The position numbers were made by a program, and so were the translations under genes. A stretch of 64,000 nt of DNA from Phaeocystidibacter luteus (GTDB lineage Bacteria > Bacteroidota > Bacteroidia > Flavobacteriales > Schleiferiaceae). The DNA lies in the NCBI RefSeq assembly GCF_008933115.1, contig NZ_WBVO01000010.1, positions 62,001 through 126,000 of the forward strand, given 5' to 3'. Below are positions 7,273 to 14,033 of this stretch, one piece after another (the stretch's first letter is position 1; each line of letters begins with the position of its first letter). The notes beneath the pieces were generated by a model. The model was not told the DNA's origin, made no database searches, and saw nothing but the letters and a program-made list of their open reading frames with translations.

Positions 7273-7344
7273 TTAATCCAACCAGAATTGATTCTAAAGA
7301 GTTTGATATCTTCGTTTCTGGATTCGAATTGAGAACTTCTGAGC

Positions 7345-7400
7345 CGGTGAGAGGGGGACTCGAACCCCCGGTACCTATCCAATGATAACACACTATCGAT
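7345..7400 (-). pseudogene. tRNA-Ser-like 3' fragment (anticodon loop to 3' end)
   Basis: Reverse-complement reading gives an anticodon-loop-like segment TCGATA, a 3' anticodon strand GTGTG, a 5-bp variable arm (TTATC-attg-GATAG), a perfect T-arm (GGGGG TTCGAGT CCCCC) and acceptor strand TCTCACC with discriminator G at 7345. The long variable arm and G discriminator fit a class II tRNA-Ser, and CGA fits the anticodon position. No matching 5' half (GGTGAGA, D-arm, CACAC) precedes it, so this is a fragment and not a functional gene. Confidence 0.7.
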
Positions 7401-7666
7401 TTACGAGAACTCAATATTCATAGGACTTCGGAATCTCTGTCGATTCCGAAGTCTTACTTCGCAATATTGCGAAGTAAGAAGTGGTCTTATTGATCCATTT
7501 AGTAGGAACTTACTATCTTCAAACTAAGGTTACCAACTGAGAACTTCTGAGCGAGAAGCCCTCTGCACTGAGAAGTTTCTCCCGCAACCGCGGGATAACC
7601 CTTCTGAGAAGCAAGGCTCTGAAATACTGATTTTTAGGACGATATAAGAGAGGTTCATTTCCCTCC
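7345..7666 (-). repeat. Modular tRNA-fragment repeat, copy A
   Basis: First of four related modules (others begin at 8600, 10090 and 10720). Read on the minus strand it is a conserved tail starting GGAGGGAAATGAACC, two adjacent perfect palindromes, then the 3' part of a tRNA gene. The palindromes are an 11-bp stem with a 6-base loop at 7425-7452 (ACTTCGGAATC/GATTCCGAAGT) and a 24-bp perfect palindrome at 7454-7477. The tail holds another small hairpin (TCCCGC/GCGGGA). It separates the cusABC operon from merTP. It is best explained as the end of an integrative element next to a displaced tRNA 3' end; that is inference. Confidence 0.8.
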
Positions 7667-7742
7667 TTCTTGGAGAGAGAATAGATTTGATTGAAATTAA
7701 GAATGTTAATTTTGCATTGATAATTAGAAAACAGGGGTTTCA

Positions 7743-8354
7743 ATGAAGAAAAAGAACTCGAGAGCATTCGCCTTTACCGGTCTGCTTACTGCAATTACTG
7801 CATCGCTTTGTTGCATAACCCCTGTGTTGGCCCTGATGGCTGGATCAAGCGGACTTGCCGCGACATTTTCTTGGTTAGAGCCATATAGGCGATGGTTAAT
7901 AGGCTTGTCCGCTCTAACCTTAGTGTTTGCATGGTACCAAAAGCTGAAACCGAGATCCGCTGAAGAAATTGCATGTGAATGTGAAGAGGATGCAAAGCCC
8001 TCATTTTGGCAATCGAAGAAGTTTCTGGGGATAATAAGTGTCTTCGCATTGTTGATGATGGCCTTTCCGTATTATTCAACTTCCTTTTATCCTGAACCGA
8101 CAATTTCTCCAGCTCAAACAGCTCAAAATGAGTCAAGCTATGAAATCAATATTAGTGGCATGACTTGTTCTGGATGTGAAGAGCACGTGAAAATGGAAGT
8201 AGGAAGCCTACCAGGAATATCAGGATTGGAAGTGTCTTATGAAAAAGGAAGTGCTTTGGTTTCCTTTGATAAAGAACTTACCAATCTTGAAGAGGTGAAG
8301 GAAGCCGTGAAGAAGACCGGATATACAGTAGAATCGGTTAAGCAATCAAGATGA
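7743..8354 (+). CDS. merTP: MerTP-type mercuric transport protein (MerT membrane domain fused to HMA domain)
   Basis: 203-aa inner-membrane protein. Residues 8-65 hold two to three membrane segments, with a vicinal Cys-Cys (SLCCITPVLALMAG) in the first, the mercuric-ion site of MerT. A loop with C-E-C follows near 77-80 and a further membrane helix near 98-112. The C-terminal 65 residues are a heavy-metal-associated domain with the motif GMTCSGC, equivalent to MerP. Such MerT-MerP fusions occur in Bacteroidota. It imports Hg(II) or a similar soft metal; no mercuric reductase (merA) is seen here. It overlaps the next gene by 4 bp. The cassette is bounded by tRNA-fragment repeats A and B. Confidence 0.88.
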   Translation: MKKKNSRAFAFTGLLTAITASLCCITPVLALMAGSSGLAATFSWLEPYRRWLIGLSALTLVFAWYQKLKPRSAEEIACECEEDAKPSFWQSKKFLGIISVFALLMMAFPYYSTSFYPEPTISPAQTAQNESSYEINISGMTCSGCEEHVKMEVGSLPGISGLEVSYEKGSALVSFDKELTNLEEVKEAVKKTGYTVESVKQSR

Positions 8355-8563
8355 GCGAGGTAATTTTAAAATCTACAATAACATGTCCTACATGTGGACA
8401 TCAGAAGGAGGAAATCATGCCCACTGATGCCTGTCAATTTTTCTATAATTGTGAAAATTGCAAGGAAGTACTTCGACCAGAGCCCGGTGACTGTTGCGTC
8501 TATTGTTCTTATGGGTCGGCAGCTTGTCCACCTATTCAGGAAAATGGTAAAGGTTGCTGCTGA
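8351..8563 (+). CDS. GDCCVxC-domain small cysteine-rich protein
   Basis: 70-aa protein with ten cysteines, including CPTCGH near the N-terminus, CENC in the middle, the signature GDCCVYC near residue 47 and a terminal CC. This is the small GDCCVxC family found beside mercury and copper genes in many bacteria; some homologues replace a cysteine with selenocysteine, but none is needed here. The start codon overlaps the merTP stop by 4 bp, so the two are co-translated. A thiol-based metal-handling role is inferred. Confidence 0.85.
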   Translation: MSEVILKSTITCPTCGHQKEEIMPTDACQFFYNCENCKEVLRPEPGDCCVYCSYGSAACPPIQENGKGCC

Positions 8564-8599
8564 TGTTTTTTTAAGTGAAGGGAATAGAACCTTTTGAGG

Positions 8600-8624
8600 T
8601 GGAGATAGTCGGAGTCGAACCGAC
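8600..8624 (-). pseudogene. tRNA 3' fragment (T-arm and acceptor strand), second tRNA type
   Basis: On the minus strand: T-arm GTCGG TTCGACT CCGAC, acceptor strand TATCTCC and discriminator A at 8600. The preceding bases differ between this copy and the one at 10720, so only the T-arm and acceptor part can be called tRNA with confidence. No partner GGAGATA 5' strand precedes it. The amino acid identity was not assigned. Confidence 0.6.
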
Positions 8625-8880
8625 GCCACCTCACTACTTTCATATAGATACGAATTACTTTAACCCGCTTGAACACTACTCTCCGGAATCTCTGTCGATT
8701 CCGAAGTCTTATTGATCCATTTAGTAGGAACTTATTATCTTCGAACTAAGGTTACCAACTGAGAACTTCTGAGCGAGAAGCCCTCGACGTTGAGAAGTTT
8801 CCAAATCGTAACCCTTCTGAGAAGCATAGCTCTGAAACACTGATTTTCAGGACGATATAAGAGAGGTTCATTTCCCTCCC
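8600..8880 (-). repeat. Modular tRNA-fragment repeat, copy B
   Basis: Second module. It carries a different tRNA 3' fragment from copy A but the same hairpin (GGAATC/GATTCC core near 8683-8703) and the same tail ending at TTCATTTCCCTCC. Against copy A it lacks exactly 33 bp that contain the 24-bp palindrome; the deletion lies between two GTCTTA direct repeats that are present in A. It marks the right edge of the merTP cassette. Confidence 0.78.
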
Positions 8881-8967
8881 TCTCCGGGGATAGTAACAAT
8901 AACATTACGGGTTTTCGAACAAGATCCTATTATAGAGGAAGTGTGGCAGAACAGTATCTTAATAACT

Positions 8968-9933
8968 ATGGCAAATTATAAGTTGCATATCGTTATATGG
9001 AGCAATATCTTCTTGTTCATGTTGCTTCTTTGCTCGTGTAGTAGTCATTATAATCATGATATTGAGAACTGGTCACTATCTTACTTTCGTGGACTCAATC
9101 CTTATGATATACATTCGCCAGGTCTATTGGTGATAAAGAATGATTCAATTAGATGGTATGGGCACATGTTTGATGTTCAATCAAACCTGTGTCTTGACAA
9201 TTTAATGGATCATAGATATTGTGGGCCGTATACACGAGAACATTTAGGTGCGGTCTATGATTACTGTCATAACACAATTCCACATGTAAAATTGAAAATG
9301 ACGGATACATGCAGATCCATTAGTGTCATTGTAAGTCCTCGAATTTTGCATTATCGGTTTCAATCGACTGACACCATCTATACTATTAAAACTGGAGAGG
9401 CCTTTGATTTATGTGGCCTGATTTTGCAGCACGGCCTAGCGCAAGGTAGAGAGGATGAAAATTTGATTTACTTCGGAAACAGAGAGATTTGGCACCGATT
9501 ATTTGCATTTCCAATTGCCGCTAAATCTGGAATACTCCCTCCAGTAACTAGGTCTATTGAGAGGTATTTTAGTAATTTTAATAATCCCCGCATAGATGAG
9601 ACCGGATATGCTAAAAGAGCGTATAGTGAGACCATTAGCTTCAGAGATGATGATACCTGGATGATGCTAGGTCAGTCTTCGAACTTAAAGTCAGAACTCG
9701 ATTCAATTATGACCACCTTTACTCAGGATGCTTATCAGGTCATTAAAGATCGTGATGATTTGGAGCAGATAATGATGGCATATTTTAAATTGATACTCTC
9801 TGGTGAGGAGTACTTAAAGATTAATAAGTTGGATGTAGATTCAGGACTTTTATTTATTTCATTATGTGAAGAAAATATGGTTCTCGAATATTGTGTTGAA
9901 CGTCCGTATATATTCAGAATACATGAGCAATAA
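8968..9933 (+). CDS. Orphan lipoprotein between repeat copies B and C
   Basis: 321-aa protein not recognised. The chosen start gives a hydrophobic leader ending in a lipobox (LLLCSC, Cys about residue 24); a GTG 27 bp upstream would add nine polar residues. The mature part has no membrane segment and is rich in aromatic residues and aspartate, with no clear domain. The gene is AT-richer than its surroundings and is flanked by repeats B and C, so it looks like cargo of the repeat system. Confidence 0.7.
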   Translation: MANYKLHIVIWSNIFLFMLLLCSCSSHYNHDIENWSLSYFRGLNPYDIHSPGLLVIKNDSIRWYGHMFDVQSNLCLDNLMDHRYCGPYTREHLGAVYDYCHNTIPHVKLKMTDTCRSISVIVSPRILHYRFQSTDTIYTIKTGEAFDLCGLILQHGLAQGREDENLIYFGNREIWHRLFAFPIAAKSGILPPVTRSIERYFSNFNNPRIDETGYAKRAYSETISFRDDDTWMMLGQSSNLKSELDSIMTTFTQDAYQVIKDRDDLEQIMMAYFKLILSGEEYLKINKLDVDSGLLFISLCEENMVLEYCVERPYIFRIHEQ

Positions 9934-10089
9934 GCAACCGGTATCACACATTATTGACATCAGTAAGCTTCCCGTTGAGACGAGTTGGTTATCAGTCAAT
10001 ATTTCATCGTTTTTTAACTCACTATACCTGGGGTATTTACGCAGATACAATGATAAAGGGTTGAATAAGGAGTATTTGGACTTTTCGGT

Positions 10090-10145
10090 CGGTGAGAGGG
10101 GGACTCGAACCCCCGGTACCTATCCAAAGGTAGCACACTATCGAT
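10090..10145 (-). pseudogene. tRNA-Ser-like 3' fragment, second copy
   Basis: Nearly identical to the fragment at 7345-7400: the same T-arm, acceptor strand and TCGAT start point. The variable arm differs (CTACC-tttg-GATAG against TTATC-attg-GATAG), so it is not a simple recent duplicate. Translations crossing it give a spurious tRNA-derived peptide and were not called as genes. Confidence 0.68.
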
Positions 10146-10222
10146 TTACGTTAACTCAATATTCATAGGACTTCGGAATCTCTGTCGATTCCGAGGTGCT
10201 ACTTCGCAATATTGCGAAGTAA
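10090..10222 (-). repeat. Modular tRNA-fragment repeat, copy C (truncated)
   Basis: Third module, with the tRNA-Ser-like fragment and both palindromes (one mismatch in the first stem). It stops matching the other copies right after the second palindrome, so the conserved tail of about 190 bp is missing. Confidence 0.78.
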
Positions 10223-10370
10223 AAAGTTGCGGTCGTTCATCATTGTTCTCACTTTTAGAGGACATTTTTATTCTCTTCAGAATCATAAAGCGATCTCTCC
10301 TTGGCCCTCTAGTAACTTTACACCTGCACTTCTGTGTGAGTCGTCAATTGACGGGGCTAAGGTATCCCTC

Positions 10371-10521
10371 TTACCAGCCTTTTAGATTTTTGAAGTAATT
10401 GCGCTTCATTTTGACTTCTGACCTAAAAAGCGCAACTCGCCTCATTGTTTAGTGATTTGATCATTAGCAGTTCTCGATAATCCCATACTAAGGAATCTAG
10501 CGCAGGCCGATTTGTCTTCAT
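10371..10521 (-). other. Two mini-ORFs with a duplicated start context; possible recombinase remnant
   Basis: On the minus strand a 32-codon ORF (start 10521, stop 10423) and a 12-codon ORF (start 10409, stop 10371) both begin in the same context, AGAAGTCAAAATGAAG. The first contains LVWDYRELLMIKSLNNE, which weakly resembles the N-terminal SAM-like core-binding part of tyrosine recombinases before it hits a stop. That frame is open upstream to 10674. Between repeats C and D (10223-10719) I see nothing else. Confidence 0.25.
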
Positions 10522-10719
10522 TTTGACTTCTCTTGGTGTGTTCTTTCTCATTTCAATTGAGTGCGCGGATGAGCTCTGCTCAGACGCTCCATCTTGCTTT
10601 AATCTTTTATTTAAATAGTTAGAATATACTGGTATGGTTGTCGTTTTTTCCGGAATCCCCTCTGAAACGCCCATGTTTTCGTTGACTATCTAAAAATGGA
10701 CTTCGGAAATTTTTTCCGT

Positions 10720-10744
10720 TGGAGATAGTCGGAGTCGAACCGAC
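10720..10744 (-). pseudogene. tRNA 3' fragment (T-arm and acceptor strand), second type, copy 2
   Basis: Same T-arm and acceptor strand as the fragment at 8600, with discriminator A at 10720. The bases before the T-arm (AAGGTC) look like a class I variable loop, so the source may be a class I tRNA. No 5' half is present. Confidence 0.6.
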
Positions 10745-11043
10745 GACCTTCAACCAACTATACATAGATACGCAATCTCCTGATGCCACGTAAGCACTGC
10801 ACTTCGGAATCTCTGTCGATTCCGAAGTCTTACTTCGCAATATTGCGAAGTAAGAAGTGGTCTCCATGCCCCATTTATTGGGATCTTATTATCTTCGAAC
10901 TAAGGTTACCTACTGAGAACTTCTGAGCGAGAAGCCCTCTGCACTGAGAAGTTTCTCCCGCAACCGCGGGATAACCCTTCTGAGAAACATAGCTCTGAAA
11001 AACTGATTTTCAGGACGATATAAGAGAGGTTCATTTCCCTCCC
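10720..11043 (-). repeat. Modular tRNA-fragment repeat, copy D
   Basis: Fourth module, full length, with the second tRNA type, both palindromes and the conserved tail ending at TTCATTTCCCTCC. It is the rightmost copy; unrelated GC-rich sequence follows and then a T9SS gene. Confidence 0.8.
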
Positions 11044-11240
11044 GTAGAAATGGCGGTGGAAAACCGAATCCAAGCGACCGAAGGGAGCTTGAGCAAAGGT
11101 TTGTGCATTAAAAAACTAGTCGCTGAGGAACGAAGCGGCCGTGGTTTTGAAGTTTTATAGGTTCCCCGCAAGCCGAGGAACGAGGCGCAGCGGAACGCCG
11201 ACCAATAGCCTAAACACACCTCCTTTTTCACTTTGGATGA
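11044..11240. other. Non-coding GC-rich stretch with short hairpins
   Basis: No gene seen. It contains short inverted words such as CGCT...AGCG and GCC...GGC around GAGGAACGA (near 11127 and 11174). The same word recurs inside hairpin loops near 52651 (reverse complement) and 58428. Confidence 0.4.
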
Positions 11241-11290: not shown

Positions 11291-12799
11291 ATGAAATCTC
11301 TCACCTCTATCCTTTTCTTTCTGCATACTGCATTGTCATTCGCGCAAGTGCCTTATACAAACGTTGCAAACTACATCTGTCATAATTCCGACCCGTCCAT
11401 TGAAGTTGTCGGCAATCATTACTTCATCGCCAATATAAATAATAGCATCTCTGAAGAAATTTTTCAATTTGTCAAGTGTGACACACTTGGTAACATACTT
11501 GACACCCTAACTCTGAACTATAGCTCAACTGAGGATTTTGTAACGAATTGTAAAAAATGCCTGGAGTACCATGATGGAGCACTGTACCATGGGTTTATTA
11601 ACGATCTTGCTTTTGTGCCTTTCGATACTGGAGTTGTCGTATTCACTAAGATTAAGCCCGATCTTTCTGACACTATTAAAACTCTAGTATATAATTCCAA
11701 TAGAAGAAATCTCCTAGGTCTAACCGACATGGAGTTTGATTCAGATTCCACATTTGTCTCTTGTATGTTTCGTACGTTCATTGCCGGAACTGACTCTACA
11801 CTTCCAGGCTATTACAAAACTGAAAGTCTAATTACTAAATTGGATACTAATCTCAATGTGCTTTGGGAACTTAGCATTCCAGATCCGGATTCTAGTCGAG
11901 ATTATGGTCATTCCCCCTCCAAAATAATCATCAACAATGATGGCACTGCTTTTATTATTGGACCCGACCATGCATTTCACGTTTCTTCATATCGAGAATC
12001 ATTTGTTGCAAAAGTCAGACTAAGCGATGGCCATTTACTCTGGAGAAAAACCTTTACACATCCGCGAGGTTTCAGAGGCATGTATGCAGCGGATAATGGT
12101 GATGGCACCTTGAGATTCGTCAGGAGCACTTATCAAAGCACAGGTCAATTTCACACATTACTAAGTGTGGGTATTATAGATACTGCTGGAAACATCTTAA
12201 ATGAAAAGGAGTACGGTTGGAAGAACTCAATTATTGTTAGTGATGATCTAATCAAACTGGACGACGGGAATTTCTATTGTAGTGGCGAGTATCAAAGAAA
12301 TCGTGGTTTTGGCTTCAAATTCTCACCAAACTTAGATAGTCTTTGGATGGTTAATTACGATTATCCATTTAACGTAGGATTATCTGTTCCGGATGCATTT
12401 ATTCAAGACTCAAGCGGCATGATTGCACATACTGGATGGACCGTTTTAACCATTGACAGTGTAACGGATGTTTACAACTGGTTATTCAGAGTAGACACCC
12501 GAGGCTGCACCGTTTCAAATTGTGATATCAGTATCTACGAGCATACACAGTTAGATCCTCGATGGAGGGGATTTCCAATTCCATCTACAGGGCCGCTTAC
12601 TATTGATCATCCTGAATTGGCCCGTTTTGGAAGCGTAGCTATTCAGGTTTTTGATCTTGCCGGGCGAAAGGTCTATGCACAAATACACGACTGCAATCAA
12701 GCCATATCCATAAACATTGAAGCACCTGGACAGTACCAAGTGCTTATTGGAGACGAAAACCTCAATGCATTAGGCCTTTTAAAGGTTGTGATTCAGTAG
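11291..12799 (+). CDS. Secreted protein with T9SS type A sorting domain
   Basis: 502-aa secreted protein. The signal peptide ends near residue 19 (LSFAQ). The middle has repeated beta-strand segments with motifs such as VKCDTLGNILDT and LDTNLNVLWE, like the PQQ/propeller-type repeats in many Bacteroidota secreted proteins. The last 80 residues form a T9SS type A sorting domain (VAIQVFDLAGRKVY ... APGQYQVLI ... LLKVVIQ). It is therefore probably exported through the type IX system and surface attached or released. Its specific function is unknown. Confidence 0.8.
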   Translation: MKSLTSILFFLHTALSFAQVPYTNVANYICHNSDPSIEVVGNHYFIANINNSISEEIFQFVKCDTLGNILDTLTLNYSSTEDFVTNCKKCLEYHDGALYHGFINDLAFVPFDTGVVVFTKIKPDLSDTIKTLVYNSNRRNLLGLTDMEFDSDSTFVSCMFRTFIAGTDSTLPGYYKTESLITKLDTNLNVLWELSIPDPDSSRDYGHSPSKIIINNDGTAFIIGPDHAFHVSSYRESFVAKVRLSDGHLLWRKTFTHPRGFRGMYAADNGDGTLRFVRSTYQSTGQFHTLLSVGIIDTAGNILNEKEYGWKNSIIVSDDLIKLDDGNFYCSGEYQRNRGFGFKFSPNLDSLWMVNYDYPFNVGLSVPDAFIQDSSGMIAHTGWTVLTIDSVTDVYNWLFRVDTRGCTVSNCDISIYEHTQLDPRWRGFPIPSTGPLTIDHPELARFGSVAIQVFDLAGRKVYAQIHDCNQAISINIEAPGQYQVLIGDENLNALGLLKVVIQ

Positions 12800-13968: not shown

Positions 13969-14033
13969 GCCACCCAACAACACCTATACGCAACGCCCTT
14001 CGGGACACTGCGCATAACCAAACTGTTATGTGC
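13969..14033 (+). repeat. attC-like recombination site
   Basis: Imperfect inverted arrangement resembling an integron attC site. The outer pair is GCCACCCAAC (13969) and GTTATGTGC (14025), similar when reverse-complemented. The inner pair is TATACGCA (13985) and TGCGCATA (14009), 7 of 8 complementary, around a CCC/GGG hairpin. A cassette-like start (CTATTTGAGAAAATG) follows directly. No integrase is in the window, and the consensus core is imperfect. Confidence 0.4.

Follow-up and report, generated by a model that had tools for sequence, protein, structure and literature searches.

How does a bacterial genome come to hold a row of tRNA 3'-end fragments, each joined to palindromes, with cargo genes lying between the copies? 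The question is raised by a stretch of 64,000 nucleotides from Phaeocystidibacter luteus, bases 62001-126000 of contig NZ_WBVO01000010.1 (contig C2 of the genome labelled G000), which is referred to here as the window and within which the finding was examined up to position 14000. Four modules of the same orientation, at 7345, 8600, 10090 and 10720, are confirmed where an initial annotation had placed them. Each opens on its cargo side with an inverted, core-only piece of a tRNA 3' end (the L copy), passes through one or both of two palindromes (pal1 and pal2), and in three cases ends in a conserved far part, the tail. We consider it likely, with a probability of roughly 70%, that these modules form the joints in a stack of integrative cassettes anchored at a tRNA gene. 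The comparison draws on a sister genome (G001), a relative (G002), a member of another genus (G016) and a genome with tails like those of that other genus (G062). The census of modules combined genome searches with retrieved stretches, and may miss decayed copies.

The L copies are 29-30 nt long and lie on the minus strand. Modules 1 and 3 (7345-7374 and 10090-10119) carry the inverted 3' end of tRNA-Ser(GCT), matching the genome's own gene at 29/30 positions. Modules 2 and 4 (8600-8628 and 10720-10749) carry that of tRNA-Ala(GGC), with two differences from the pattern in module 2 and full identity to the genome's own gene (30/30) in module 4. The alternation of two tRNA types proposed initially is therefore correct, with the identities revised: the serine fragment is from Ser(GCT) and not Ser(CGA), and the fragment left as ‘type 2’ is Ala(GGC). 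Dinucleotide shuffles of the window gave 0 matches of this kind, so that none would be expected by chance for a copy such as that of module 1. ARAGORN reported no tRNA in the window, as expected because the L copies are fragments of only 30 nt, and Rfam matches to transfer-messenger RNA (tmRNA) and plastid untranslated regions, all below gathering scores, are attributed to the shared T-arm.

About 45 nt further on, every module carries pal1 (ACTTCGGAATCTCTGTCGATTCCGAAGT), followed in three of the four by pal2 (TTACTTCGCAATATTGCGAAGTAA). On the plus strand these occupy 7425-7478 in module 1, 8681-8711 in module 2 (pal1 without pal2), 10170-10221 in module 3 and 10801-10854 in module 4, and pal1 is nearly invariant across three species. 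As the initial annotation had also noted, tails follow in three modules, here 1, 2 and 4, all on the plus strand. The tail of module 1 (7536-7669; nhmmer E 2.9e-41) contains CTGAGAA arm motifs and ends in a tRNA-Ser mimic with an attR-like core at 7648-7666. The tail of module 2 (8758-8882; E 1.1e-42) continues to 8886 with the full tRNA-Ser(TGA) 3' end, and that of module 4 (10912-11044; E 3.3e-40) has an attR-like core at 11024-11042. A remnant of an older tail, GAGAACTTCTGAGC, identical to the start of a tail and cut off by module 1, remains at 7320-7344 (plus strand). Module 3 lacks a tail and has in its place a decayed piece of DNA (10222-10718, minus strand) that matches, at 91%, sequence adjoining the tRNA-Ala integrase of the sister genome (G001:C2:852273-852779); within it, 10521-10718 matches a replication-initiator-like backbone gene (87% over 207 nt). 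The interval 10230-10700 was also considered as an integrase remnant, which tblastn ruled out in favour of a remnant of this neighbouring backbone gene region.

The row of modules belongs to a longer array. An intact tRNA-Ser(TGA) gene at C2:33336-33421 heads it, 36 kb upstream of module 1, and further modules of the family, beyond the extent described initially, lie upstream of the window on the same contig (C2:43,042-54,537) at C2:43042, 49919 and, inverted, 51444 and 54217. Tail ends repeat the last bases of tRNA-Ser(TGA) (CCCTCCCTCTCCG), and some 600 bp found behind this tRNA recur behind the tail at C2:43171 with 96% identity. Therefore, the window holds the distal (last four) joints of a ~40-kb array anchored at tRNA-Ser(TGA). 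An anchoring RNA gene with repeats of its own 3' end at island boundaries is likewise found at the Ser(GCT) and Ala(GGC) loci. Furthermore, two tail classes track the tRNA, tail 1 ending at Ser(GCT) or Ser(TGA) and tail 2 at Ala(GGC), and the tail copies that stand at island ends are followed by the matching tRNA's own downstream DNA.

Tyrosine recombinase genes lie directly behind exactly the three tRNAs concerned: Ser(GCT) in P. luteus, and Ser(TGA) and Ala(GGC) in G001. These recombinases are mutually related (55-67% identical), and the one tested for domains has an Arm-DNA-bind_5, a SAM-like and a catalytic domain (PF00589). The frame that adjoins tRNA-Ser(GCT) in P. luteus is intact. In the window itself, tblastn with related integrases gave no match, bearing out the absence reported in the initial annotation. 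Of the 88 genomes of the family, 14 encode relatives of the integrase (E up to 1e-60), and more than half of the scanned integrase loci have a tRNA (Ser TGA, GGA or GCT, Asp or Pro) in their short flank; a scan of wider genome contigs gave two distant loci. In two sister genomes the modules also border other cargo, and between G000 and G001 the cargo differs at corresponding tRNA loci, among them tRNA-Ser(TGA). To this extent the initial proposal of a stacked system in Bacteroidota, linked to tRNAs and a tyrosine recombinase and variable in its cargo, is supported. The proposal was to be given up if relatives lacked linked recombinases and variable cargo, or if the likeness to tRNA vanished; relatives have both, and the likeness held. 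No match was found when the tail was searched for in viral contigs or the module in plasmids.

A connection between tails and recombinases is provided by short motifs that distant tails have in common with the integrase-side arm, the DNA between the tRNA and the integrase gene. For one of them, CGTAACCC, 3.7 kb of arms and tails contain 16 copies and 460 kb of other retrieved DNA contain 5; the p-value is indicative only, since this motif was picked once the sequences had been inspected and the tails are of common descent. A cleaner and independent case comes from the other genus, where the 15-base motif TTGCTTAGCGGCTTG has only four copies in the whole genome of G016: three tails hold one each, and the fourth lies in the arm next to integrase 1. 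G062 has two copies, one in its arm and one at the far island end. Another G016 tail carries CGTAACCC, as does the arm of the array's second integrase, and two cassettes of this genome consist of one gene each, followed by a tail. Because arm motifs are common to the integrase-side arm and the tails, and tail ends mimic the tRNA, the tail is best read as the attachment site attR, and the motif matches support the view that each cassette would be addressed to one resident recombinase.

What, then, is the inverted tRNA piece at the other side of the module? The L copy contains the full core (T-arm and acceptor strand, with both half-sites) and has no arm motif. Because the core is complete and the arm motif is absent, it resembles attB rather than attR. 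In 9/9 typed cases, its tRNA gene differs from that of the module's own end or anchor, and in 1/9 both are Ser tRNAs. The initial annotation had taken the inverted fragments for displaced 3' ends left by integration at this locus. They probably are not: the anchor is Ser(TGA) and the L copy Ser(GCT) or Ala, so that reading was rejected, and the displaced end is more probably the end of the tail, which mimics tRNA-Ser(TGA). An origin by tRNA-primed reverse transcription was also considered and dropped; there is no CCA at the junctions, and the L copy is conserved together with its inner flank.

If the L copy were a landing site, cassettes of its tRNA type should lie outward of it and point in the same direction. 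This arrangement is seen for L(Ala) at three loci, in a small sample of copies that are related by descent and whose counts are not independent. On contig C25 of G002, L(Ala) is directly followed by a two-gene cassette ending in an Ala-type tail. On C62 of the same genome, a piece of an Ala-type tail abuts L(Ala), and on C2 of P. luteus two inverted Ala-type tails, foreign to the Ser array, are found beyond the outer edge of the L(Ala) at window position 8600 or 10720. Each joint may combine its own attR with an inverted landing site from a different tRNA, such that two or three recombinases nest their arrays in a branching rather than linear fashion; we offer this tentatively, at somewhat below even odds. 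In tails of the other genus, an inverted tRNA-like core (GGTGAGAGAAATGAACC) stands about 75 bp upstream (G062:C86:393-500; G016:C1:1293480-1293500), and the L-like part may be general.

The mechanism that we propose builds on the observed anatomy, anchoring tRNA, integrases with their tRNA partners, common arm motifs and differing cargo in relatives. An arm-binding tyrosine recombinase, supplied by full elements that sit immediately after a tRNA-Ser or tRNA-Ala gene, would join the 3' end of the tRNA, at its T-arm core, with a two-armed site of the element. One arm would remain behind the tRNA beside the integrase gene, and the other, the tail, would be left at the far end, finishing in a mimic of the tRNA 3' end (attR). 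Cassettes consisting only of cargo and a tail would depend on this recombinase acting in trans, and would accumulate behind tRNA-Ser(TGA). The L copy would act as an embedded attB for cassettes of the other tRNA family, allowing the array to grow inside a cassette; this is the least certain part of the explanation. What we infer is that cassettes are excised and moved in trans, and where the crossover takes place; for movement in trans the backing comes from the matching of arm motifs.

Several observations weigh against this explanation. Neither an excised circle nor an empty site was seen, and no family integrase stands beside tRNA-Ser(TGA) in the P. luteus genome. The arrangement predicted for a landing site was not found for L(GCT) or L(TGA), and the sample in which it was sought is, as noted, small and of common descent. 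A fourth class of L copy (L4) fits no tRNA; the one resemblance, between the acceptor end of a tRNA-Ala(TGC) and the G000 copies, is not convincing. Finally, the edges of L copies and tails cut cargo genes at arbitrary places, as in RteC at C2:54537, and direct reading of the sequence indicates that AlbA-like and STAS-like genes are cut by module edges in the same way. Such cuts go beyond site-specific recombination alone and imply a further cargo-capture step.

Some of these points would suit an array that is a frozen graveyard of immobile stacked islands, whose L copies are scars of aberrant excision or of rearrangement between tRNA loci and have no present function. Consistent with that idea, P. 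luteus lacks an integrase of the family at tRNA-Ser(TGA), the window shows one truncated tail, a palindrome that has been lost and remnants of genes, and L edges cut through genes. However, an integrase frame beside tRNA-Ser(GCT) in this genome is intact, and tails of a single class end at Ser(GCT) as well as at Ser(TGA). The L(Ala) of module 4 still agrees with the host tRNA at every position, pal1 has hardly changed across the three species, and two species differ in the cargo that they hold at tRNA-Ser(TGA). We regard a frozen array as rather unlikely. Could the whole module instead be a non-autonomous insertion element of ~330 bp, resembling a miniature inverted-repeat transposable element, that inserts anywhere, has tRNA-derived inverted ends by chance and has mere neighbouring DNA as its cargo? 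Both edges are indeed sharp, tRNA-like and inverted, the outer flanks vary between copies, and yet tails without an L copy stand at island ends beside the downstream DNA of the tRNA. An insertion element of this kind is also hard to square with arm motifs common to the tails and the integrase-side arm, and the readable module flanks are different truncated genes (RteC versus an unrelated gene, C2:54217-54537), with no target duplication seen by eye. We regard it as quite improbable.

The back-to-back ends of a module could also be two alternative attachment cores placed around common arms, giving a choice of two targets (tail core or L core) instead of a landing site. In its favour, the L copy terminates precisely at the 3' end of a tRNA, as does the tail, with different tRNA genes involved in all nine typed cases, and L-like cores flank tails in another genus as well. 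The L copy, unlike the tail core, holds both tRNA half-sites and lacks an arm motif, and in no copy was the downstream DNA of the matching tRNA seen next to L; a dual target choice is therefore unlikely in our view. The stack of tRNA-anchored cassettes remains the reading that we prefer for the modules as a whole.

The palindromes lead to another component of the full elements. Pal1 and pal2 also occur upstream of a gene for a protein of 462-503 aa that lies downstream of, or near, two integrases (L013:4764-6275, minus strand; L041:9435-10823, plus strand). The sole family match of this protein is a weak one to replication initiation proteins, and a search within the family found it only in this genus; the confidence of its structure prediction was too low for use. 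A search of viral contigs found no relatives of this initiator-like protein or of a small protein encoded nearby in the G001 element. The palindromes are probably, though on weak support, sites of binding or replication origin for the initiator-like protein. In two modules of G002 (C74:84-136 and 1159-1211), a different hairpin (CCCGAAGTATCGGG) replaces the pal1/pal2 border, and at this locus the shape of the border hairpin may matter rather than its sequence. In one module of G001, an apparent pair of IS3-type transposase genes lies between the palindromes and the tail (C2:866353-868021).

Between modules 1 and 2 of the window, a plus-strand open reading frame (ORF) at 7743-8354 encodes MerT fused to a heavy-metal-associated domain (203 aa; PF02411 and PF00403); MerT and the mercury-binding domain had been recognized initially, as separate merTP genes and not as one fused frame. 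It is followed by a small cysteine-rich ORF (8352-8564, plus strand), which from direct reading of the sequence is a candidate for the GDCCVxC protein named in the initial annotation. Between modules 2 and 3 lies a lipoprotein-like ORF of 330 aa (8941-9933, plus strand) with no Pfam match. An AcrB-type transporter and a CusB-like protein are encoded upstream of module 1, and in G001 metal transporters lie between two L copies. The spread of metal resistance, suggested earlier as what the system does, is nevertheless too narrow a description, since cargo elsewhere in such arrays includes type III restriction-modification (a type III restriction enzyme, with DNA methyltransferases also found), a HerA-type ATPase, secreted proteins, and a type II cyclic-oligonucleotide-based antiphage signalling system (CBASS) with 2TM effector, cyclase, E1-E2 and JAB genes.

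Some further observations concern the cargo. Two paralogous secreted proteins that seem to carry type IX sorting tails adjoin modules of the same array (window 11291-12799; L010:6438-7901), as though one family of cargo had been acquired on two occasions. Cassette starts also hold truncated copies of a gene for an RteC-like regulator, with different cut points (G000:C2:33931, 43674 and 54538). The G001 element behind tRNA-Ser(TGA) (C2:76.8-105.2 kb) has an endolysin (GH108) among small unplaced ORFs, followed by an ArdC-like protein, a type II CBASS and DNA methyltransferases, and could be an unusual prophage or satellite with defence genes.

If the explanation is right, Bacteroidota would possess a cassette system distinct from integrons, in which arm motifs address small cassettes to a resident, tRNA-specific recombinase and metal resistance and phage defence are gathered together. 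Embedded heterotypic tRNA sites would let a genome gain cassettes with its tRNA genes untouched, and would explain cassettes that are nested and inverted. Such arrays can also be found directly through a motif common to the integrase-side arm and distant tails, and orphan cassettes can be assigned to their recombinase by the same means.

Where does this leave the array among known systems? In integrons, a gene is followed by a structured recombination site, and arrays of such units are moved by a recombinase encoded elsewhere and anchored at a fixed site. The outline is alike: arrays of gene plus recombination site, a recombinase that would act in trans and a fixed anchor. The anchors here are tRNA genes, however, in place of the attI that adjoins an IntI-type integrase; arm repeats and tRNA cores make up the recombination sites, and an arm-binding domain (Arm-DNA-bind_5) is present in the integrase together with the SAM-like one. 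The plan of integrative mobilizable and cis-mobilizable elements, in which full members carry a recombinase beside the anchor, is found at Ser(GCT) in P. luteus and at Ser(TGA) and Ala in the sister genome, and is absent at Ser(TGA) in P. luteus.

The genomic islands at ssrA in Dehalococcoides insert in the T-loop region and include integrase-less ‘cis-mobilizable’ members (PMC3146451). They are similar in forming a tandem stack behind one RNA gene, with short 3'-end repeats and some members without an integration module, and they differ in using a serine recombinase and a tmRNA target, compared with a tyrosine recombinase and Ser and Ala tRNAs here. The recombinases of the array are of family PF00589 and its targets are tRNA genes, in place of the large DsiB/CcrB-like serine recombinase and the tmRNA of those islands. 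Its joints carry, in addition, an inverted piece of a second tRNA, which does not figure in the excerpts of that description (PMC3146451). Tycheposons, elements of 4-200 kb from original work on Prochlorococcus (via the parts of PMC10872708 drawn on here), have a tRNA border, a tyrosine recombinase and variable cargo in common with the array, a likeness taken from description only; many units of the array are one- or two-gene cassettes without a recombinase, in which they differ from tycheposons as summarized there. The additive flexible island of Methylophilaceae described in the same parts of that paper has recurring 20-bp repeats of a tRNA-Lys end, and so also has repeated tRNA end fragments between variable cargo, including resistance genes; its repeats are direct and of one tRNA, and arm-bearing tails and heterotypic inverted copies do not appear in those parts of the description (PMC10872708). 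Closer in taxonomy is the 10K genomic island of Riemerella anatipestifer, for which excision and integration were shown experimentally (PMC6764341): it too belongs to Bacteroidota, adjoins a tRNA gene and has a tyrosine integrase, and it differs as a single island with 53-bp direct repeats and no integrase-less stacking (PMC6764341). A literature search found no description of an inverted heterotypic tRNA copy at each joint. The features tested place the array outside the integrons and outside the ssrA islands of the Dehalococcoides type; it is like tycheposons in general features, by description. The stacking of islands behind a tRNA or tmRNA gene, with integrase-less members, is a process of known kind (PMC3146451, PMC10872708); the unusual feature of the P. 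luteus array is the inverted heterotypic tRNA copy at its joints.

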